The position numbers were made by a program, and so were the translations under genes. The notes under the pieces were generated by a model. It saw nothing but the letters and a program-made list of their open reading frames with translations, made no database searches and was not told the origin of the DNA. Positions 6,780 to 60,038 of a stretch of DNA of 64,000 nucleotides are shown here, one piece after another. The stretch is taken from NCBI RefSeq assembly GCF_039555755.1, contig NZ_CP154631.1, positions 3,224,001-3,288,000 of the forward strand, given 5' to 3'. Position 1 is the stretch's first letter, and the number at the start of each line of letters is the position of its first letter. This DNA comes from Pseudomonas sediminis (GTDB lineage: Bacteria; Pseudomonadota; Gammaproteobacteria; Pseudomonadales; Pseudomonadaceae).

Positions 6780-7535
6780 GTGGAACAAGAAGCGTGGCAG
6801 ATTCTCATCGTCGAGGATGACCAGCGCCTGGCGCAGTTGACCCGCGAGTATCTGGAGGGCAATGGTCTGCGTGTGGCCATCGAAGCCGACGGCGCGCGTG
6901 CGGCGGCGCGGATTCTCGCCGAGCAGCCGCACCTGGTGATCCTCGACCTGATGCTGCCGGGTGAAGATGGCTTGAGCATCTGCCGCAAGGTGCGCAGCGG
7001 TTACAAGGGGCCGATCCTCATGCTCACTGCGCGCACCGACGACATGGATCAGGTGCTGGGCCTGGAGATGGGCGCCGATGACTACGTGTGCAAGCCGGTG
7101 CGCCCGCGTGTGCTGCTGGCGCGCATTCGTGCGCTGCTGCGCCGCCGTGAGGGCAGCGAAAGCGAGCGTGATGAAGGTCAGCCGCGGCGTCTGCAGTTTG
7201 GTGCGCTGGCCATCGACAGCGCCATGCGCGAAGCCTGGCTGGGCGAGCAGGGCATCGAGCTGACCAGCGCCGAGTTCGATCTGCTCTGGCTGCTGGCGGC
7301 CAATGCCGGGCGCATCCTGTCGCGCGAGGAAATCTTCAATTCCCTGCGCGGTATCGAATACGACGGCCAGGACCGTTCCATCGACGTGCGTATTTCGCGC
7401 ATCCGCCCGAAGATCGGCGATGACCCGATGCACCCGCGGATGATCAAGACGGTGCGCAGCAAGGGTTATCTGTTTGTCGCCGAGGCCGCCGAAGCGCTGC
7501 CGTTCGGTGATGCGCCGCCGATCCTGCGCGATTGA
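6780..7535 (+). CDS. OmpR/PhoB-family response regulator
   Basis: DNA-binding response regulator of a two-component system. The receiver domain (about 5-120) has the acidic pair in ILIVEDD, the phospho-acceptor Asp in LVILDLMLPGEDG and the switch Lys in VCKPVRPR. A winged-helix effector domain follows (about 140-245; ILSREEIFNSLRG, DVRISRIRPKIGDD, RSKGYLF). I prefer the GTG start at 6780 (VEQEAWQILIVEDD) because AGGGG lies 7 bases upstream; ATGs at 6732 and 6762 add residues unlike the family. It is followed after 10 bases by its kinase. The pair lies beside nrdA in the same arrangement as P. aeruginosa PA1157-PA1158. The stimulus is unknown. Confidence 0.93.
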   Translation: MEQEAWQILIVEDDQRLAQLTREYLEGNGLRVAIEADGARAAARILAEQPHLVILDLMLPGEDGLSICRKVRSGYKGPILMLTARTDDMDQVLGLEMGADDYVCKPVRPRVLLARIRALLRRREGSESERDEGQPRRLQFGALAIDSAMREAWLGEQGIELTSAEFDLLWLLAANAGRILSREEIFNSLRGIEYDGQDRSIDVRISRIRPKIGDDPMHPRMIKTVRSKGYLFVAEAAEALPFGDAPPILRD

Positions 7536-14130: not shown

Positions 14131-15000
14131 TTAGAGCGGCTCTTCATCCGCCGGGTAACGGCTGGCGCTGAGGCTTTCCTTGATCTTGCGCAGGTGTGGC
14201 TGGAAGTCGACGCCGCGGCGCAGGGTGACGCCGGTGGCGAGTACGTCGAGTACGGTGAGCTGGATGATGCGCGAGGTCATCGGCATGTAGATATCGGTGT
14301 CTTCCGGCAGCGGAATGTCCAGGCTCAGGGTGCTGGCCTTGGCCAGCGGCGAGCCGGCGGCGGTGAGGCCGAGCACCGAAGCGCCGTTCTCGCGCGCCAG
14401 GCGCGCCACTTCCACCAACTCGCGGGTGCGCCCGGTGTAGGAAATGATCACGAACAGATCGCCGGTGTGCGCCACCGAAGCGATCATGCGCTGCATCAGC
14501 ACGTCGGAGTGTGCAGAGACCGCGAGGTTGAAGCGAAAGAACTTGTGCTGTGCGTCCAGCGCTACCGAGGCCGAGGCGCCGAGGCCGAAGAAGTGGATCT
14601 GCCGCGCCTGGATCAGCAGGTCGACGGCGCGGCTGACGTGCTGCGGGTCGAGGCTCTGGCAGGCGCTGTCCAGCGAGGCGATGGTGCTGCCGAAAATCTT
14701 GCGCGTGTAAGCCTCGGGGCCGTCGTCGGCCGATACCGCGCGGCTGACGTAGGCGGCGCCGCTGGCCAGGCTCTGCGCCAGCTGCATCTTCAGTTCCGGA
14801 TAGCCGTTGGCGCCGAACGAGCGGCAGAAACGGTTGACCGTCGGCTCACTGACGGCGGCGGCCTGTGCCAGCGCAGCGATACTGAAGCGTGTGGCTTGCT
14901 GCGGGTCGTGCAGGATCACTTCGGCGACCTTGCGTTCGGCCTTGTTCAGGTCGTCCAGGCGGCTCTGGATCTGTTCCAGCAGGTTGCGCACGCGGTCCAT
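14131..15000 (-). CDS. hexR: HexR, RpiR-family repressor of central glucose metabolism
   Basis: A 289-residue regulator with an N-terminal helix-turn-helix of the RpiR type (about 1-80; [15 protein letters not shown] is the recognition region) and a C-terminal SIS sugar-phosphate domain (about 120-260; [18 protein letters not shown] and [17 protein letters not shown]). HexR binds 2-keto-3-deoxy-6-phosphogluconate and releases its operators. It is divergent from zwf-pgl-eda, the classical Pseudomonas arrangement, with a perfect operator between them. Confidence 0.96.
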
Positions 15001-15117
15001 AAGGGCTCCTAACAGGCGGTTGAACGGGCTTGGCGACAGGCGATGGGCGGTAAAACAACCGGCCTATCCTACTGATGCCGCCCCGTGGCCACCACTGACT
15101 TATCGGATGTAGTGAAT

Positions 15118-15140
15118 AATGTTGTTGCTATCACAACATT
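15118..15140. promoter_or_regulatory. HexR operator between hexR and zwf
   Basis: AATGTTGT and ACAACATT form a perfect palindrome with a seven-base centre; the inner part matches the known HexR motif TTGT-N7-ACAA. It lies 63 bases ahead of zwf and about 118 ahead of hexR, so it can control both. The same core appears at 57536-57550. Confidence 0.88.
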
Positions 15141-15190
15141 TTTCCTTGATAAAAGCAGTATCACCCGGTATTTCTAGTGCATCTTGATAA

Positions 15191-15199
15191 AAGAACAAA
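15191..15199 (+). promoter_or_regulatory. Crc/Hfq-type A-rich motif ahead of zwf
   Basis: AAGAACAAA fits the AAnAAnAA pattern that Hfq-Crc binds to block translation in Pseudomonas. It covers the place where a ribosome site would be. A match this short is suggestive only. Confidence 0.5.
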
Positions 15200-15202
15200 C
15201 TC

Positions 15203-16672
15203 ATGCCTGCGATGAAGCTTGAATCCTGCACCTTTGCCTTGTTCGGCGCGCTGGGCGATCTGGCCTTGCGCAAGTTGTTTCCCGCGCTTTACCAGCTCGA
15301 TCGCGCCGGTTTGCTGCACGATGGCACGCGCATCCTCGCCCTGGCCCGTGAAACGGGCGAGCCGAGTGGTCACCTGCGCGCCATCGAACAGGCGTTGCGC
15401 CTGCACGTACCAGCCAAGGAGCTGACGGAAACCGACATGGCGCGGTTTCTGGCGCGCCTGAGCTACCTGAGCATGGACTTCCTCAAGGCCGACGATTATG
15501 CGGCGTTGCTCGAGCATGTGAGCCCGCAGGATCAGTTGATCGCCTACTTCGCCACGCCGGCCTCGGTATACGGTGGCATCTGCGCCAACCTGGCTGCCGT
15601 GGGGTTGGAAGAGGGCACGCGGGTGGTGCTGGAGAAACCGATCGGCCACGACCTCTCGTCCTCGCGTGCGGTCAACGATGCCGTGGCTCAGGTGTTCCCG
15701 GAAAACCGCGTCTATCGCATCGACCATTACCTAGGCAAGGAGACGGTGCAGAACCTGATTGCCCTGCGTTTTGCCAACAGCCTGTTCGAAACCCAGTGGA
15801 ACCAGAACCACATCTCCCACGTGGAAATCACCGTGGCCGAGAAGGTCGGTATCGAAGGGCGCTGGGGTTACTTCGATCAGGCCGGGCAACTGCGCGACAT
15901 GATCCAGAACCACTTGCTGCAACTGCTCTGCCTGATCGCCATGGACCCGCCCAGCGACCTGTCGGCCGACAGCATCCGTGATGAGAAGGTCAAGGTGCTC
16001 AAGGCGCTGGAGCCGATCAACGTCGAGCAGCTCGGCCAGCGCGTGGTGCGCGGCCAGTACGTGGCCGGCAGCAGCGATGGGCGCGCGGTGCCCGGCTATC
16101 TGGAAGAAGAAAACTCCAACACCCAGAGCGATACCGAAACCTTCGTCGCCCTGCGTGCCGACATCCGCAACTGGCGCTGGGCCGGCGTGCCGTTCTACCT
16201 GCGTACCGGCAAGCGTATGCCGCAGAAGCTGTCGCAGATCGTCATCCACTTCAAGGCGCCGCCGCACTACATCTTCGCTCCGGAGCAACGCCAGTTGATC
16301 GGTAACAAGCTGATCATCCGTCTGCAGCCGGACGAGGGCATCGCCCTGCAGGTGCTGACCAAGGATCAGGGCCTGGACAAGGGCATGCAGCTACGCAGTG
16401 GTCCGCTGCAGCTGAGTTTCTCCGACACCTACCGCAGTGCGCGCATCCCCGATGCCTACGAGCGCCTGTTGCTGGAAGTGATGCGCGGCAACCAGAACCT
16501 GTTCGTGCGCAAGGACGAAATCGAATACGCCTGGCAGTGGTGCGATCAGTTGATCGACGGCTGGCAGCGCCTCGGCGAAGCGCCGAAACCCTACACCGCC
16601 GGCAGCTGGGGCCCCATGGCCTCGGTTGCGTTGATCACCCGGGATGGCAGGAGCTGGTATGGCGATCTCTGA
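15203..16672 (+). CDS. zwf: Glucose-6-phosphate 1-dehydrogenase
   Basis: Oxidises glucose 6-phosphate to 6-phosphogluconolactone with reduction of NAD(P)+, feeding the Entner-Doudoroff route. The 489 residues include the nucleotide-binding [14 protein letters not shown] at about 10-24 and the substrate-binding and catalytic RIDHYLGKE at about 172-180. The start at 15203 (MPAMKLESC) has no clear Shine-Dalgarno; instead AAGAACAAA lies directly upstream, a match to the Crc/Hfq A-rich target motif. ATG 15212 is an alternative. It overlaps pgl by 14 bases. Confidence 0.97.
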
Positions 16673-17372
16673 ACTGAAACTGCCGCAGGGCGTACAGGCC
16701 TGCCCCTACGACAGTGCCGAACAACAGGCCCAGGCGATGGCGGTGCTCGTGGCCGATGCGCTTCGTGAAGCCATTGCCAGTCGCGCTCAAGCCACGCTGG
16801 TCGTTTCCGGCGGGCGCAGCCCGGTGCTGTTCTTCGAGGCGCTGGCGCAGCAGGACGTGCCCTGGGCGCAGGTGCTGGTGAGCCTGGCTGACGAGCGCTG
16901 GGTGCCGATCAATCACGCGGGCAGCAACGAGGCGCTGGTGCGTCGTCACCTGCTGCGTGGGCCGGCGGCCGAAGCGCGTTTCCTCAGTCTGTACCAGGTT
17001 GCCGGCAACCTCGACCAAGCGGCCGAGCTGGCTGATGCGGCGGTCGCCGAACTGGCACCGATAGACGTGCTGGTGTTGGGCATGGGCGATGACGGTCACA
17101 CCGCCTCGCTTTTCCCGCACAGCCCCAATCTGCACCAGGCGCTTCAGCCAGCTTGCGCGCGCCGTGTGCTGCCGATGCTGGCACCGAGCGAGCCGGCGCA
17201 GCGCCTGACCCTGACTATGCCGGTATTGGCCAGCGCACGCCTGCCGCTGCTGGCGATCCAGGGTCAGGCGAAACTGAACATCCTCGGCGCGGCGCTGCGG
17301 CCTGGTGAAACCTCCGAGCTGCCCATTCGCGCGTTCCTGCATTCCCCCCTCGAAATCCATTGGTGCCCCTGA
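16659..17372 (+). CDS. pgl: 6-phosphogluconolactonase
   Basis: Hydrolyses 6-phosphogluconolactone to 6-phosphogluconate, the second step of the zwf-pgl-eda operon. The start ATG at 16659 ([11 protein letters not shown]) lies inside the end of zwf and gives 237 residues, the usual DevB/Pgl length. Motifs are [10 protein letters not shown] near the N-terminus, the substrate-binding DERWVP, and [15 protein letters not shown] at about 145-160. Translational coupling to zwf is likely. It is followed by eda after one base. Confidence 0.96.
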
Positions 17373-17373
17373 C

Positions 17374-18045
17374 ATGACCAGCCTCGACCAAGGCCAGCGC
17401 GCGCGCATGGCCGACAAAATCGCCGAGATCGACCGCATCTGCGCGCAGGCGCGGATCATGCCGGTGATCACCATCGCCCGCGAGGCGGACATCCTGCCGC
17501 TGGCCGACGCCCTGGCCGCTGGTGGCCTGCGCGTACTGGAAGTGACCCTGCGCTCTGAGCACGGTCTGGAAGCGATTCGCCGCCTGCGTGCCGAGCGCCC
17601 CGAACTCTGCGTTGGCGCTGGCACCGTGCTGGATGAAGACATGCTCGCCGCGGCGACCTCCGCCGGTGCGCAGTTCATCGTCACGCCGGGCAGCACGCGT
17701 GAGCTGTTGCTGGCCGCGCTGGATAACCCGCTGCCGCTGCTGCCGGGTGTGAGCAGTGCATCGGAACTGATGGTTGGCTACGCCCTGGGTTATCGCCGCT
17801 TCAAGCTGTTCCCAGCGGAGATCTGCGGTGGCGTCGCGGCGCTCAAGGCGTTGGCTGGGCCTTTCGGCGGGGTGCGTTTCTGCCCCACCGGCGGCATCAC
17901 CCCGGACAACCTGCAGCGCTACATGGCGCAGCCCAACGTCATGTGCGTAGGCGGCACTTGGATGTTCCAGCGCGAGTGGGTGGAAAGCAGCGACTGGGCA
18001 CGTATCCAGCAATGCAGTACCGAGGCCTTGCAGCTGTTGAGCTGA
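17374..18045 (+). CDS. eda: 2-keto-3-deoxy-6-phosphogluconate aldolase
   Basis: Cleaves KDPG to pyruvate and glyceraldehyde 3-phosphate, the last Entner-Doudoroff step. With the start at 17374 (MTSLDQGQRARM) it has 223 residues. The catalytic Glu is in VTLRSEHG, the Schiff-base Lys in RFKLFPAE, and phosphate binding in CPTGGI. Genes for KDPG formation (edd) are not in this operon, and the usual edd-glk-gltR locus appears to be ruined at 57536-58394, so how KDPG is produced in this strain is an open point. Confidence 0.97.
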   Translation: MTSLDQGQRARMADKIAEIDRICAQARIMPVITIAREADILPLADALAAGGLRVLEVTLRSEHGLEAIRRLRAERPELCVGAGTVLDEDMLAAATSAGAQFIVTPGSTRELLLAALDNPLPLLPGVSSASELMVGYALGYRRFKLFPAEICGGVAALKALAGPFGGVRFCPTGGITPDNLQRYMAQPNVMCVGGTWMFQREWVESSDWARIQQCSTEALQLLS

Positions 18046-51794: not shown

Positions 51795-53573
51795 TCAGGC
51801 AGCGAACTCCTCATCAGTGATGGCCATCAGTGTCGCCTTGCCTGCCTTGATCTCGCTGAGCAGGGCGTCGGTTTCTGGCAGGATGCGGGCCATGAAGAAA
51901 TCGGCGGACTTGATCTTGGCCGCATAGAAATGAGTTTCCGAACTGCCGGCATCGAGTTGGCGCTGGGCCAGCTGGGATTGTTGCGACCACAACCAGGCTA
52001 GGCTGGTCAGACCGAACAGACGCAGATAGGGCGTTGCCGCTGCAGCCGCCTGCTCCGGGTCCTTGCTGCCCTCGCTGGCCAGCCAGAGGGTGGCTTGTTG
52101 CAGTTGCTTGAAAGCCCGGGTGACGGCCGCTGCATGCGGCGCCGCCGGGTTGTCCTTGAGCCAGTCTTCGACCAGGGCGAAATAGGCGCGCACGGCGCGA
52201 CCACCGCCCATCGCCAGCTTGCGCCCCACCAGGTCCAGCGCCTGTATGCCATTGGTGCCTTCGTAGATGCGCGTGATGCGGCTGTCGCGTACCAGTTGCT
52301 CGATGCCCCAGTCCTCGGTGAAGCCCGAGCCGCCCAGTACCTGTAGACCTTCGTTGGCGCAGGTGAAGCCTTCATCGGTGAGGAAGGCCTTGACCACCGG
52401 TGTCAGCAGTTGCACCAGATCGTCGGCGCGGCTGCGGGTTTCAGCATCCTCGGCGCCGTGAGCGATGTCCTGTTGCAGGCCGGCGTAGTAGGCCAGGGCG
52501 CGGCAGCCTTCGATCATCACCTTCTGCCGCAGCAGCATGCGGCGTACGTCCGGGTGCACCATGATCGGATCAGCCGGCTTGTCGGCCGCCTTCGGGCCTG
52601 AGATGGAGCGACTCTGCAGGCGCTCGCGAGCGAAGCCCAGGGCGATCTGGTAGGCGCTTTCGGCCACACCCAGGCCTTGCATGCCGACCATCAGGCGTGC
52701 CGAGTTCATCATGGTGAACATGCAGCTCAACCCCTTGTTCGGTTCACCGATCAGCCAGCCCTTGGCGCCCTCGAAGTTCATCACGCAGGTGGCCGAACCC
52801 TTGATGCCCATCTTGTGCTCCAGGCCACCGCAGAAGGCCGGGTTACGGCTGCCATCTTCCAGCACCTTGGGTACCAGGAACAGGGAGATGCCTTTGACGC
52901 TATCCGGTGCGTCCGGCAGCTTGGCCAGCACCAGATGGACGATATTGTCGACCAGATCGTGCTCGCCACCGGTGATCCAGATCTTGGTGCCGGTGATGGC
53001 GTAACTGCCATCGGCCTGCGGCACGGCGCGGGTGCGGATCAGGCCGAGGTCGGTGCCGCACTGCGGTTCGGTCAGGCACATGGTCCCGGTCCACTCACCG
53101 CTGATCAGACGCGGCAAATATTGCGCCTGCTGCTCGGGGGTGCCATGGCTGGTCAGGGCGTTGATGGCGCCATGGGTCAGGCCGGGGTACATGCCCAGTG
53201 ACAGATTGGCCGAGCAGGTCATTTCCTCGACCAGCATGTTCAGTACGTGTGGCAGGCCTTGGCCGCCAAACTCGGGTGTGCATGCCAGGGCCGTCCAGCC
53301 CCCTTCGGCGAACTGCTGATACGCGGCCTTGAAGCCGTCCGGGGTACGCACGCTGCGGCTCTGTGGGTCGTACTGGCAGCCTTGCTTGTCGCCAGGGCCA
53401 TTGAGCGGGGCCAGTACGTTCTCGGCCAGCTTGGCGGCCTCTCCGAGGATCGCACCACTGAGGTCGGCACTAAACTCGCGGTGTTCGGGCAAATTTTGCA
53501 GCAGGGTGTAGGCGTCGAGCAGTTCTTCGAACACGAAGCGCATGTCACGCAGCGGAGCACGGTAGGACGGCAT
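51795..53573 (-). CDS. Acyl-CoA dehydrogenase with C-terminal extension
   Basis: A 592-residue FAD acyl-CoA dehydrogenase with the long form seen in Pseudomonas FadE-like proteins: N-terminal domain, MCLTEPQCGTDLG and IWITGGEHD (FAD and substrate loops), the helical C-terminal domain VLGGSGFTEDWGIEQLVRDSRITRIYEGTN-type region (about 435-465), and an extra C-terminal domain of about 120 residues. It begins beta-oxidation of some acyl-CoA. Likely catalytic Glu is in RIYEGTNG. The promoter region has an operator-like dyad. Confidence 0.92.
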   Translation of the reverse strand: MPSYRAPLRDMRFVFEELLDAYTLLQNLPEHREFSADLSGAILGEAAKLAENVLAPLNGPGDKQGCQYDPQSRSVRTPDGFKAAYQQFAEGGWTALACTPEFGGQGLPHVLNMLVEEMTCSANLSLGMYPGLTHGAINALTSHGTPEQQAQYLPRLISGEWTGTMCLTEPQCGTDLGLIRTRAVPQADGSYAITGTKIWITGGEHDLVDNIVHLVLAKLPDAPDSVKGISLFLVPKVLEDGSRNPAFCGGLEHKMGIKGSATCVMNFEGAKGWLIGEPNKGLSCMFTMMNSARLMVGMQGLGVAESAYQIALGFARERLQSRSISGPKAADKPADPIMVHPDVRRMLLRQKVMIEGCRALAYYAGLQQDIAHGAEDAETRSRADDLVQLLTPVVKAFLTDEGFTCANEGLQVLGGSGFTEDWGIEQLVRDSRITRIYEGTNGIQALDLVGRKLAMGGGRAVRAYFALVEDWLKDNPAAPHAAAVTRAFKQLQQATLWLASEGSKDPEQAAAAATPYLRLFGLTSLAWLWSQQSQLAQRQLDAGSSETHFYAAKIKSADFFMARILPETDALLSEIKAGKATLMAITDEEFAA

Positions 53574-56200: not shown

Positions 56201-57373
56201 TCAGGCGCGAGCAGTCAAGTGCCGGGCGATGCCCTTCTTCAGCGGCAGCAGGCCCTGAGCCACGCGCAGACCTGCGCCGCGTAGCAGGCGCGCGGGCAGG
56301 CGATCGTTGGTGTACAGCTCCACCAGCAGGTTGGTGGCCTGGTACAACGGCCAGGTGGCCAGTCGCAGCTGGCGTTCGTAGCGGGCCAGCGCTGATGTTG
56401 AACCGATGTCCTGGTGTTTGCCATGGGCGGCCAGCAGGGCGTCGCTGAGCAGTTGCACGCCAATCAGGCCGAAGTTGAAGCCATGCGCGGTGACCGGGTG
56501 CATGCCCACGGCGGCATCGCCGAGCAGGGCGCAGCGGTTGCCGACCATGCGTCGTGCGTAGGCGCCCACCAACGGGTAGACGTGGCGGCTGCTGACCAGT
56601 TGCATGGCGCCCAGGCGGCGGTCGAAGCGCTTTTCCATCTCGCGGGTGAAGATCGCCTCGTCCAGTTTCTGCAGGCGTTCTATTTCGCGCGGTGGCAGGG
56701 TGAGGACCATCGACGACTGCCGGCCATTAAGCGGTAGCAGGGCCAGGGTCTGGCCATAGCCGAACCACTCCCAGGCGATTTGCTGGTGATCCTGCTCGTG
56801 CTGCATGCGGCATACCAGCATGCTCTTGCCGAAGTCCTTGAGTTGCGCGCCGATGCCGAGCTGGCGGCGCGTTTCCGAGAAGCGGCTGTCGGCGGCGACC
56901 AGCAGGCGTGGCTGCAGCACCTGACCATCCTGCAGCACCAGTTTCACCTCGTTCTGGCGTTGCTCTATGGCGCGCACGCTGGTTTCGCACAGCAATTGCA
57001 CATCGGCGCATTCGCTCACGGCCTGATAGGCGGCGCGGCGAATGGCCTGGTTGGCCACCAGATGGCCGAGTCGTTCGGCGCCGGCCTGTTCGGCGCGGAT
57101 CTTCAATGCGAACAGCGAGGGGCCGTTGAACACCTGAGCGTCGCGTAGTACGGCAATGTCTTCGCTGGGCAGGCGCGCCCATAGGCCCAGGCGCTCGAGC
57201 AGTGCCTGCGAACCATGGGTAAGGGCGATCTCGCGGCCATCGAAGGCCGGTTCAGCCAGTGCCTGCTCGGTCTGGCGCTCCAGCAGGACGATGGACAGAC
57301 CCTGTCCGGACAGGGCACGGGCCAGGCAAAGGCCGGCCGGGCCGGCGCCGACGATGACGATATCGGGTGACAT
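56201..57373 (-). CDS. ubiM: UbiH/UbiF/UbiM-family FAD monooxygenase
   Basis: A 390-residue flavoprotein hydroxylase of ubiquinone synthesis: dinucleotide-binding VGAGPAGLCLARAL at about 7-20, the second FAD motif LLVAADSRFSETRR, and GDAAVGMHPVTAHGFNFG near the C-terminus. The DGREIALTHGSQ region and length fit UbiM (5-demethoxyubiquinol hydroxylase), though UbiH/UbiF relatives cannot be fully excluded. The ATG at 57373 has GGAGAG upstream; the longer frame to 57457 is rejected. Confidence 0.75.
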   Translation of the reverse strand: MSPDIVIVGAGPAGLCLARALSGQGLSIVLLERQTEQALAEPAFDGREIALTHGSQALLERLGLWARLPSEDIAVLRDAQVFNGPSLFALKIRAEQAGAERLGHLVANQAIRRAAYQAVSECADVQLLCETSVRAIEQRQNEVKLVLQDGQVLQPRLLVAADSRFSETRRQLGIGAQLKDFGKSMLVCRMQHEQDHQQIAWEWFGYGQTLALLPLNGRQSSMVLTLPPREIERLQKLDEAIFTREMEKRFDRRLGAMQLVSSRHVYPLVGAYARRMVGNRCALLGDAAVGMHPVTAHGFNFGLIGVQLLSDALLAAHGKHQDIGSTSALARYERQLRLATWPLYQATNLLVELYTNDRLPARLLRGAGLRVAQGLLPLKKGIARHLTARA

Positions 57374-57535
57374 GCTGCAGCTCTCCAAGCGGATGGCCAG
57401 TAGGGCGGGTGCAACCCGCCATGCGCCGATGCAAAATGCCAGTCTAGGTCGCAGCAAAGACGCAGATATTGTCCGGGGTCATGCTTGGAGCTGGATGCGA
57501 GGGGCTGGATGATGGCTGCAGTGGGGCACAAAATA

Positions 57536-57550
57536 TTGTTGTTATTACAA
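57536..57550. promoter_or_regulatory. HexR operator without its operon
   Basis: TTGT-TGTTATT-ACAA has the TTGT-N7-ACAA pattern and is nearly the same as the zwf operator. In Pseudomonas, edd and gap are HexR-controlled; here the site stands 91 bases before a decayed gene set. Confidence 0.75.
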
Positions 57551-57640
57551 GTTTATCCGGCTTGATAGGCGTAATTTTCGGGTTTACTGTGATGCGCGTT
57601 GTTTGAACTATAAAAATAATTCGGGTTTGGAGTCGATGCC

Positions 57641-57885
57641 ATGCATCCTCATCGTTCTGCAGTGGCCGCTCAGCAAGCGTCGGCGGCGTGGTGCCGCGTT
57701 TTGCCGAACGCTTTCTCGCCAGCGGTTTTGCCAAGAGCTTCAGCGACAAGGGCTGCATGAGCGATTATCTTCACGGCATTCCATTGTGGCTGGTGACGGC
57801 TGAGTATCCAGGCCTTACCGGCGCTGGCGTGGCCTTGCAACAGGCATCGGAGCGTAGCCTGGATGCAATCCGGGATAAGCATTGA
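57641..57885 (+). pseudogene. glk: Possible edd start joined to a glucokinase 3' fragment
   Basis: After the HexR site, a GGAG-ATG start (57641) reads MHPHRSAVAA, whose first residues match the usual Edd start MHP. The sequence then enters, in another frame, the C-terminus of glucokinase: VGGVVPRFAERFLASGFAKS, SDYLHGIPLWLV, and EYPGLTGAGVALQQA (57679-57860), matching the end of Glk in E. coli and Pseudomonas. All of edd beyond a few codons and about three quarters of glk are missing. The end of the frame runs into a dispersed GGATGCAATCCGGG repeat. It cannot make a kinase. Confidence 0.82.
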
Positions 57886-57915
57886 TAGCCCCCCGGATTT
57901 GATCCGGGCTACACA
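57857..57915. repeat. GGATGCAATCCGGG/CCGGATTTGATCCGGGCTAC palindromes
   Basis: Two short dispersed palindromes typical of Pseudomonas intergenic DNA lie at the end of the glk fragment and before the gltR fragment. Similar strings occur at 9220 and 60011. Confidence 0.6.
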
Positions 57916-57940
57916 GTCATAACAAGAAAGGTGGCGGGCC

Positions 57941-58060
57941 ATGAGCCAGCCCGGCAAATCGATTCTGCTGGTCGATGACGACCAGGAAATTCGCGAACTG
58001 CTCGATACCTACCTGAGCCGCGTCGGCTTTCAGGTGCGCGCCGTGGCCGATGGCGCCGCC
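57941..58060 (+). pseudogene. gltR: gltR-type response regulator, 5' fragment
   Basis: About 40 codons of a receiver domain: MSQPGKSILLVDDDQEIREL and LLDTYLSRVGFQVRAVADG, with its acidic pair, after an apparently intact ribosome site (AAAGGTGG). The sequence then changes abruptly, out of frame, to a porin. In Pseudomonas the gene after glk is gltR (regulator of glucose uptake), which fits the position. The phospho-acceptor Asp and the DNA-binding domain are missing. The exact join lies at about 58045-58062. Confidence 0.8.
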
Positions 58061-58394
58061 TCAGAACTGGCTGTCCATCGGTGGCCGCACCAGCTACGCC
58101 TTCACCGAGCAGTTCAAGCTGGTCGGCGAGATCGGTCGCGATCAGGTCGAGGCGCCCGGCGGTACGCGCAAGCTGACCAAGTTCACCATCGCGCCGACCT
58201 GGTCGCCATCCGGCCCCGGTTTCTGGGAACGTCCGGAAATCCGCCTGTACTACACCTACGCCAGCTGGAACCGCGCCGCGCAACAGGCTGCCAACCTGTT
58301 GGCCGACGGCTCGGCCTTATCCGAGAACGGCGCCTTCGGCAGCGCACGTAACGGCTCCAACTTCGGCGTGCAGGTGGAGTACTGGTGGAAGTAG
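58056..58394 (+). pseudogene. Maltoporin/LamB-type sugar porin, 3' fragment
   Basis: About 110 C-terminal codons of a maltoporin-family outer-membrane channel: SIGGRTSYAFTEQFKLVGE, KFTIAPTWSPSGPGFWERPE, IRLYYTYASWN, and the closing beta strand NFGVQVEYWWK, which ends in the aromatic residue needed for outer-membrane insertion. There is no N-terminus, signal peptide or start. It is joined directly to the gltR fragment. The sugar-uptake genes expected between gltR and the porin (gtrS, gltBFGK) are absent. Confidence 0.78.
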
Positions 58395-58428
58395 AGCGCT
58401 CCCAGGATGTGCGCGCTTTAAATCAGTC

Positions 58429-58490
58429 GGTGCGCATGGCGCACCCTACGTAGGTGGCGCAGGTCATCCGTAGGGTGCGCTGTGCGCACC
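58429..58490. repeat. GTAGGGTGCGC-type repeat pair
   Basis: GGTGCGCATGGCGCACCCTAC and GTAGGGTGCGCTGTGCGCACC face each other just after the porin fragment. Confidence 0.8.
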
Positions 58491-58495
58491 AGGAG

Positions 58496-59908
58496 TCAGA
58501 GCAACCCCGCCACCAGGCGCCCGAGTACTTCCATGGCCTGTTCGCTGCGTGGGCTCCATGGGTGGCCGTAGTTCAACCGCGCGCAGTGGCGAAAGCCCTG
58601 GCTGGCGGAGAAGATCGGCCCCGGCGCCAGGCTGATGCCCTGGGCGAGCGCCAGGCGCAGCAGTTGCAGCGAGTCCAGGCGCTCGGGGAATTCGAACCAG
58701 AGGAAGTAGCCACCCGAAGGCCTCGTCACCCGCGTGCTGGCGGGAAAGTGTCGGGCGGCGGAGGCGAGCATCGCGCTCTGTTGCATTTCCAGGGCGTGGC
58801 GCAGCTTGCGCAGGTGACGGTCGTAGCCGCCGTGCTGCAGGTAGTCGGCCAGCGCCGCCTGTGCCGGCACTGACGGCGAGATAGTGGTCATCAGCTTGAG
58901 CCGGGCGATCTGCTCGGCATAGCGCCCGCCGGCCACCCAGCCAATGCGATAACCCGGCGCCAGACTCTTGGAGAAGGAGCTGCAATGCATCACCAGCCCT
59001 TCGCGGTCAAAGCTCTTCACCGGTTTGGGCGGGTGACTGCCGAAGTACAGCTCGGCGTACACGTCGTCCTCGATCAGCGGTACCTGATGCTCGACCAGCA
59101 GCTCATACAGCGCCTGCTTCTTGGTCTCGCTCATGCTGGCGCCGAGCGGGTTCTGCAGGCTGCTCATGAACCAGCAGGCCTTGATCGGCAGGTGCTTGAG
59201 GCTATCGGACAGGGCACCCAGGTCGATGCCTTCGCGCGGGTGCACGGGGATTTCCACCGCCTTGAGCTGCAGCCGCTCCAGCACCTGCAGGCAGGCGTAG
59301 AAGGTGGGGGATTCGATAGCCACCAGGTCGCCGGGCTGGGTCACGCACTGCAGGCAGAGGTTGAGCGCCTCCATGGCGCCGTTGCTGATCACCAGCTCCT
59401 CCATCGGCAGCATCACGCCGCTGACCATGTAGCGCAGGGCGATCTGCCGGCGCAGGTCGGCGTTGCCGGCGGTCATGTCGGCGATGATCTCGTGCGGCGA
59501 GAGCATGCGCAGCGCGTGCGCCATGCTTTTGGCCAGACGCGGCAGCGGAAACAGGTCGGGGCTGGGGAAGGCCGAGCCGAAGGGTACGGTATGCGGGTCC
59601 TTCAGCGAGGCGAGCACGGAGAACACCAGTTCGCTGACATCGACTTCGGTGGTTTGCGCCGCGTGGGCGGTCAGTTCCGGTTCGTGCAGCGGGCGTTTGG
59701 CGTGTTCGCGGACGAAATAGCCGGAACGCGCGCGGGCCTGGATCAGGCCGCGATCCTCCAGCAGGTAGTAGGCCTGGAACACGGTGGACGGGCTGACGCC
59801 GTAGGTGCGGCTGGCATGGCGTACCGAGGGCACTTTCTCACCGGGACCGAGCACGCCGGTACGGATCAGCTCGGCGATCTCGTCGGCAAATTTTTCGTAG
59901 CGTTTCAT
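58496..59908 (-). CDS. MocR-type regulator (GntR helix-turn-helix with aminotransferase domain)
   Basis: A 470-residue protein combining a GntR winged helix (about 1-75; MKRYEKFADEIAELIRTG, YGVSPSTVFQAYYLLEDRGL) with a class I aminotransferase-like domain (about 100-465). The PLP Lys is in CSSFSKSLAPGYRIGW. MocR proteins sense PLP-bound amines or amino acids and rarely act as enzymes. The ATG at 59908 has AGGACAGG upstream; an ATG at 59971, with GAGG upstream, would add 21 residues. The target is unknown. Confidence 0.88.
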   Translation of the reverse strand: MKRYEKFADEIAELIRTGVLGPGEKVPSVRHASRTYGVSPSTVFQAYYLLEDRGLIQARARSGYFVREHAKRPLHEPELTAHAAQTTEVDVSELVFSVLASLKDPHTVPFGSAFPSPDLFPLPRLAKSMAHALRMLSPHEIIADMTAGNADLRRQIALRYMVSGVMLPMEELVISNGAMEALNLCLQCVTQPGDLVAIESPTFYACLQVLERLQLKAVEIPVHPREGIDLGALSDSLKHLPIKACWFMSSLQNPLGASMSETKKQALYELLVEHQVPLIEDDVYAELYFGSHPPKPVKSFDREGLVMHCSSFSKSLAPGYRIGWVAGGRYAEQIARLKLMTTISPSVPAQAALADYLQHGGYDRHLRKLRHALEMQQSAMLASAARHFPASTRVTRPSGGYFLWFEFPERLDSLQLLRLALAQGISLAPGPIFSASQGFRHCARLNYGHPWSPRSEQAMEVLGRLVAGLL

Positions 59909-60038
59909 CCTGTCCTGGTTCACCGCCGCAAAGGGTACGGGCGAATACTTTACGGGGTGAGCGGCAGACATGGCAGTGCCTCGTGAAGGGGGACGTATCT
60001 CGAATCGCCCAGGATTGCATCCGGGCTACAACGCTTGC

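Follow-up and report, generated by a model that had tools for sequence, protein, structure and literature searches.

Between two intact genes, one for a UbiH-like FAD monooxygenase and the other for a MocR/GntR-type regulator, lie the pieces of a glucose locus: behind a HexR-type operator and a start-like leader come the end of glk (glucokinase), the glk-gltR spacer, the beginning of gltR (an OmpR-type response regulator) and the end of a LamB/maltoporin-type sugar porin gene (Table 1). The window, the whole stretch of 64,000 nucleotides that we analysed (G000:C1:3224001-3288000), belongs to a genome (G000) assembled as a single contig of 4,615,908 bp with a completeness of 100. A functional cluster would comprise intact glk, gltR-gtrS and gltBFGK, and what we find is a 3' part of glk, a 5' part of gltR and a 3' part of the porin gene.

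Table 1. Coordinates of the remnant, of its neighbours and of the hexR region within the window
Feature	Position	Strand	Basis or remark
hexR, intact	14131..15000	-	NF008451, 483 bits vs cut-off 296
HexR-type operator between hexR and zwf	15122..15136	+	Exact motif match
zwf, pgl, eda, intact	15203..18045	+	TIGR00871, TIGR01198, NF004325, each over cut-off
UbiH-like FAD monooxygenase gene, intact	56201..57373	-	Left neighbour; ORF, name by resemblance
HexR-type operator TTGTTGTTATTACAA, left from the deleted operon	57536..57550	+	TTGT-N7-ACAA
Start-like leader GGAGTCGATGCCATGCATCCTC, RBS and ATG (57641) resembling an edd start	57629..57650	+	Pattern match
Join 1	57675..57679	.	807 bp lost vs G097 (L102 7898-8704); BLAST and alignment to L102 and L034
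3' remnant of glk (glucokinase)	57678..57885	+	Frame open up to the stop codon
glk-gltR spacer	57886..57940	+	Read from sequence
First 40 codons of gltR (OmpR-type response regulator)	57941..58061	+	PF00072 and DNA identity
Join 2	58061..58062	.	7,788 bp lost vs G097 (L102 9065-16852); overlap 0-1 bp
LamB/maltoporin-type sugar porin, last 110 codons and stop	58062..58394	+	PF02264
MocR/GntR-type regulator gene, intact	58496..59971	-	Right neighbour; ORF, name by resemblance

Each piece can be assigned by profile and by DNA identity. The glk C-terminus (57688-57882) covers positions 263-313 of the 314 in PF02685 (E 1.1e-12) and positions 293-345 of the 346 in NF001415, and at the DNA level the remnant is 87-95% identical to glk of 14 relatives. 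The gltR piece aligns to positions 1-33 of PF00072 (E 0.00035), and its 21.2 bits fall under the family cut-off of 30.2 because just one third of the domain remains; its DNA is 93-99% identical to gltR in 13 of the 14 relatives, namely those that have gltR at this site. The porin C-terminus spans positions 286-378 of 378 in PF02264 (E 6.8e-35) and is identical in DNA, over all 333 bp, to that of G097, a genome of the same species. The initial annotation had read these fragments as parts of one operon in the right order, which the profile matches and the collinearity with G097 and with a congener, G012, bear out, and had placed the last 110 porin codons in another frame than the first 40 gltR codons, as the open reading frames and the PF00072 and PF02264 alignments confirm. 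A dispersed REP-like repeat with many genome-wide matches covers the tail of glk and the spacer (about 57850-57913); more copies are found in G000, G012, G008, G014 and G028, and the spacer of G097 differs.

The operator matches the HexR consensus TTGT-N7/8-ACAA as tabulated in PMC5902321. The window has three exact copies of the motif, TTGTNNNNNNNACAA, where chance would give 0.26. One of the three lies between hexR and zwf and another (51978-51992) inside an acyl-CoA dehydrogenase-like ORF named by resemblance (51795-53573, minus strand), where it is probably a chance match. In relatives the motif stands ahead of the glucose operon: G012, G097 and 7 of 12 named relatives have it unchanged in their glk leaders, and the remaining 5 differ from it by a single base. 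The earlier assignment of a putative HexR-type operator at 57536 is therefore retained.

The intact locus and the two joins

Among the 199 genus genomes that we searched, G097 is the one classed as the same species, and its glucokinase match is full-length. Its locus (L102) is intact, with a HexR operator followed by glk, gltR, gtrS, gltB, gltF, gltG, gltK and a LamB-type porin gene between the same neighbours; all of the eight gene frames tested are open, and in the two flanks the window agrees with it at 97.6% and 98.9% identity. The congener G012, with about 90% DNA identity around the site, carries the same genes from glk to the porin in the same order and between the same neighbours, and the fragments of the window are collinear with both loci. 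The cluster is kept at this site by G012 and by 11 of 13 named relatives, in 3 of which the end of the locus cuts the porin gene (tblastn matches under 38% identity were left out of this comparison). The UbiH-like left neighbour is also present in G012, G097 and all 12 named loci with glk here, the gene itself having served as the query by which the named loci were found, and the MocR-like right neighbour in G012, G097 and 9 of the 13 named loci, the other 4 loci ending short of it.

Aligning the window with the intact same-species locus resolves both joins almost to the base and upholds the earlier proposal of two deletions. Missing at join 1, where the overlap is 2 bp (CG), are 28 bp of leader and, from glk, its first 779 bp, most of the gene as had been claimed. 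At join 2 the 7,788 bp that are absent comprise gltR from codon 41 onwards, gtrS, gltB, gltF, gltG, gltK and the 5' part of the porin gene to about codon 302, as the initial annotation had anticipated. Since the overlaps are 2 bp and 0-1 bp, both deletions look like non-homologous events. Among the 94 and 27 matches listed from a collection of 5.8 billion proteins, in a search weakened by length limits and clustering, no protein spans join 2, and the joined state is known from G000 alone.

The lost DNA does not appear to have moved. We sought the 8,955-bp G097 stretch in four genomes and, among the matches listed for G000 (the best 40 of 411 candidate stretches), found the remnant, paralogues and short or repeat matches and no second copy, so that translocation was rejected in favour of deletion. 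The paralogous matches are parts of ABC ATPases and response regulators, those of at least 200 bp being 66-73% identical, and gltB has no match anywhere in G000. A stretch at 6933-7145 of the window is 72.5% identical to gltR of G097, and a weak gtrS match lies about 1.3 kb beyond it (G000:C1:3232417-3232528); the two probably belong to a paralogous two-component system.

Glucose genes left in the genome

The initial annotation noted hexR-zwf-pgl-eda intact 40 kb away, and indeed each of the four genes (14131-18045) passes its NCBIfam cut-off. It also allowed that the strain might use copies of edd and glk elsewhere, and here the two genes part ways. A full-length edd is present at C1:318817-320613 (TIGR01196, 1038 bits against a cut-off of 708), divergent from gap and with a TTGT-N7-ACAA site of its own in between. 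A substitute for glk was not found: the PF02685 search of G000 returns the fragment only, and the ROK glucokinase family (PF00480) has no match in G000, G012 or 8Z, so a hidden glucokinase was rejected within the scope of these two families. Across the genus, 186 of the 199 genomes match PF02685 (the fragment in G000 counted) and 13 do not; to lack a PF02685 glucokinase is uncommon in Pseudomonas but not unique.

G000 encodes a membrane PQQ dehydrogenase (TIGR03074, 1083 bits against a cut-off of 833) that aligns to E. coli Gcd over 781 residues with 46.6% identity and retains the histidines at positions 262 and 775 of the E. coli protein. A paralogue in G003 (G003b, 40.4% identity), which we presume to be quinate-like, has neither histidine, and we take these two residues as markers of Gcd. 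On roughly 47% identity and the two histidines, we class the G000 enzyme as Gcd-type, with glucose oxidation as its predicted activity. A sequence search of the PDB with the dehydrogenase lists PQQ enzymes of other kinds together with 5xm3 (named a glucose dehydrogenase; 83 bits, partial match) among its matches, and these are no help in choosing the substrate. An intact gluconokinase gene stands with TRAP transporter genes and a GntR repressor gene (gntK-TRAP-gntR).

Set against the three-route scheme of glucose use in Pseudomonas, as reviewed in PMC5902321, this gene content suggests that the phosphorylative branch is gone and that the oxidative branch is the likely remaining route, so that glucose use in G000 has probably been rerouted and not abolished. 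The earlier suggestion that glucose may no longer be used by the strain goes too far, since the Gcd-type dehydrogenase and the gluconokinase cluster remain. Published phenotypes give the same caution. Mutants of P. plecoglossicida JUIM01 that include delta-glk do not differ significantly in the glucose they consume in production medium (PMC11544825), and a triple gltKGF gntP kguT mutant of P. aeruginosa, lacking all known inner-membrane importers, is reported not to grow on glucose (PMC6237876). Like these mutants, G000 has lost glucokinase or the ABC importer, but it has done so naturally and has lost both, plus the sensor; because of the phenotypes described in these sources we do not assume that glucose use is lost in G000. 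Nor do we assume that the group as a whole does not use glucose, because P. pseudoalcaligenes CECT 5344 grows on it and its edd mutant leaves glucose untouched, as described in PMC6678421; term searches of PMC13320085 and PMC10797017 turned up nothing relevant here.

We considered whether possession of Gcd lets the importer be lost and rejected the idea, as gltB is kept in 7 of 8 genomes with a Gcd-type gene against 5 of 7 without (n = 15). The eight include G059 (P. alcaliphila JCM 10630), whose Gcd-type match (C20:1285418-1287859) has one internal TGA, so that its gene is possibly broken.

Age and origin of the scar

To gauge how far the fragments have decayed, we counted codon changes against P. 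oleovorans DSM 1045; in these comparisons the gapped glk of L052 was left out, and L046, L050, L051 and L052 gave no porin match. The porin piece differs by 17 silent and no replacement changes in 109 codons and the gltR piece by 3 silent and 1 replacement in 40 codons, while the glk remnant, with 16 silent and 7 replacement changes in 66 codons, has more replacements than the other pieces. Because the surviving fragments have hardly decayed and an intact same-species genome exists, the loss is probably recent.

We consider it highly probable, from comparison of the sequences, that the remnant is a recent strain-level scar, produced by two non-homologous deletions of a glk-gltR-gtrS-gltBFGK-porin locus, and that with it the phosphorylative route was lost, glucose, if used, probably entering via oxidation. 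The ancestor carried glk-gltR-gtrS-gltB-gltF-gltG-gltK-porin behind a HexR-type operator, between the UbiH-like and MocR-like genes, as G097 does to this day. As the comparison shows, deletions of 807 bp and 7,788 bp then took most of glk, the GtrS-GltR sensor, the periplasmic glucose ABC importer and the 5' part of the porin gene, and the operator and leader now precede fragments only. Given the absence of these genes, the phosphorylative route would be lost, and glucose, if used, would be oxidised to gluconate by the Gcd-type PQQ dehydrogenase and pass through gluconokinase to Edd and Eda, whose genes are all present and whose functions here are predicted.

An alternative of low probability, though the strongest of those that we weighed, is that the scar was made with incoming DNA by homology-facilitated illegitimate recombination, with homologous recombination on the UbiH side and illegitimate joining at the porin. 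Compared with G097 in steps of 200 bp, the window is 95-100% identical from 53.78 to 55.98 kb, falls mostly to 89-93% between 55.98 and 58.06 kb and is fully identical over 58062-58461; the right end of the divergent tract thus coincides exactly with join 2, where full identity resumes at 58062. Of the glk sequences compared, the one nearest to the remnant is that of P. sediminis (95% of 207 bp), not that of the same-species G097 (93% of 166 bp). However, a boundary between alleles anywhere inside the 7.8 kb that were later deleted would also fall on the join, the divergent tract is patchy (100% at 56377-56576, 98% at 57377-57576 and 47-75% in the repeat-bearing spacer), join 1 has no such switch in identity, and the foreign allele could equally be that of G097. 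We give similarly little weight to a wider version, in which gtrS-gltBFGK would be a module that members of the P. oleovorans/mendocina group can dispense with, at least three losses having occurred with different breakpoints and the one here via an incoming tract that ends at the join. If it were true, gene loss at this site would be a by-product of gene transfer.

That the remnant is not dead, its operator and promoter driving a short chimeric product or titrating HexR to some regulatory effect, seems to us very unlikely. The operator is intact, and the RBS and the ATG at 57641, read from the sequence, open a short chimeric frame; yet the reading frame changes across join 2, none of the protein relatives listed spans that join, the next long gene rightward, the MocR-like one, is on the opposite strand, and at least two predicted HexR-type sites (zwf; gap-edd) exist besides the operator of the scar. 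We think it slightly less probable still that the cluster is present in the organism and was collapsed in assembly. The presence of the cluster in the same-species genome and in 11 of 13 named relatives, and a joined state seen in no other record searched, would fit such an artefact, but the genome is a single contig with a completeness of 100, and an artefact would require two separate errors of assembly. Both joins are in coding sequence or next to it, with overlaps of 0-2 bp, and the repeats within 57400-58600 amount to one 14-nt direct repeat in two copies. Moreover, the segment that separates the two joins is not the G097 allele, to which it is 81% identical in a 384-bp alignment, and the matches listed elsewhere in the contig include no second copy of the lost DNA.

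The least credible reading is that of the initial annotation, in which a standard edd-glk-gltR operon stood here and lost edd, as well as most of glk, in the first deletion: the leader does carry an edd-like RBS and start, and edd lies immediately 5' of glk in G001, G003 and Pseudomonas sp. 8Z, but no edd match is found at the site, between leader and glk, in G097, in G012 or in any of the 11 (of 13) named relatives with the cluster, and edd is intact beside gap in G000, as it is beside a gap-like gene (so named by resemblance) in G012.

The possible edd start seen in the initial annotation nevertheless has substance, since the leader resembles the edd starts of 8Z, G001 and G003, even though it is no part of the present deletions. 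A pattern drawn up post hoc, after the sequences were seen, is GGAGTCGANNCCATGCATCCYC, with one Y and the other 19 bases fixed. In the 102 loci it is confined to glk leaders of the clade and the edd starts of 8Z and G001; the glk leaders with it are those of 7 of the 12 named relatives, G012, G097 and the window, the other 5 of 12 having variants. Over 39 nt the G012 leader agrees with the edd starts of 8Z, G001 and G003 at 24, 23 and 23 positions. In a null set of 952 GGAG-ATG sites, from which sites containing CATGCATCC were skipped, unrelated sites reach at most 22, and higher values belong to variants of this leader or to the G003 edd start. The RBS and start at 57629-57650 are in this sense common to edd beyond chance. 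Agreement of the G012 leader with the native edd starts is poor, at 16 positions for that of G000 and 18 for that of G012. The "edd start" is likely a relic of an older loss of edd at this site, upstream of glk and common to the clade.

Importer loss among relatives

The scar can be set beside the Pseudomonas edd-glk-gltR-gtrS operon and its importer, as portrayed for P. putida, P. aeruginosa and P. plecoglossicida in PMC5902321 and PMC11544825. It is similar in the order glk-gltR behind a TTGT-N7-ACAA site, followed by a sugar porin. It differs in lying between UbiH-like and MocR-like genes, in having no edd, in standing apart from hexR-zwf and gap-edd, in being reduced to fragments and in a porin that matches LamB (PF02264). 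Among the titles and abstracts listed in searches of the open-licence literature, none describes this collapse of the glk-gltR-gtrS-gltBFGK-porin locus.

The importer gene gltB is present in 12 of 15 genomes and absent from G000, 8Z (G008) and P. indoloxydans JCM 14246 (G067), and the breakpoints of the three importer losses differ. In P. indoloxydans (L052, 345-2837) a full glk ends about 30 bp from the MocR gene and everything from gltR to the porin is gone; of the G097 stretch this genome matches the first 973 bp, the other matches being paralogous or short. In 8Z (L035 9131-10624; L094 7704-11515; also L048) edd-glk is kept and two gltR pieces lie beside the last 39 porin codons. The edd-glk site of 8Z also has gap-, hexR- and zwf-like genes (by resemblance), and its UbiH-MocR site is without the cluster. 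Neither L052 nor the 8Z loci have gtrS or the remaining importer genes, and of the two edd genes in the 8Z genome the second lies close to a gene for gluconokinase. Like G000, these two genomes lack gltB genome-wide; unlike G000, they have other breakpoints and no match to the Gcd-type dehydrogenase, and for that last reason they are better candidates for a real loss of glucose use.

A different kind of variation is seen in L046, L050 and L051 (P. sediminis, P. composti LY1 and CCUG 59231), where gltB is divergent, with 65-66% identity to the G012 protein against 96-99% in 8 other named relatives, and where about 1.3 kb of extra sequence lies between gtrS and gltB, as in G001. In these three loci the importer cassette may have been exchanged for another, with gltR-gtrS left in place.

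The scar in G000 is ordinary gene loss, of a familiar kind and well resolved. Its value lies in the within-species pair of an intact and a collapsed locus, by which the contribution of Glk/GltBFGK/GtrS could be compared with that of the Gcd route in a natural background. Because the importer is missing in 3 of 15 genomes with different breakpoints, selection on it is suggested to be weak in this group, and the sugar route used by a member of the group would seem to be strain-level information.
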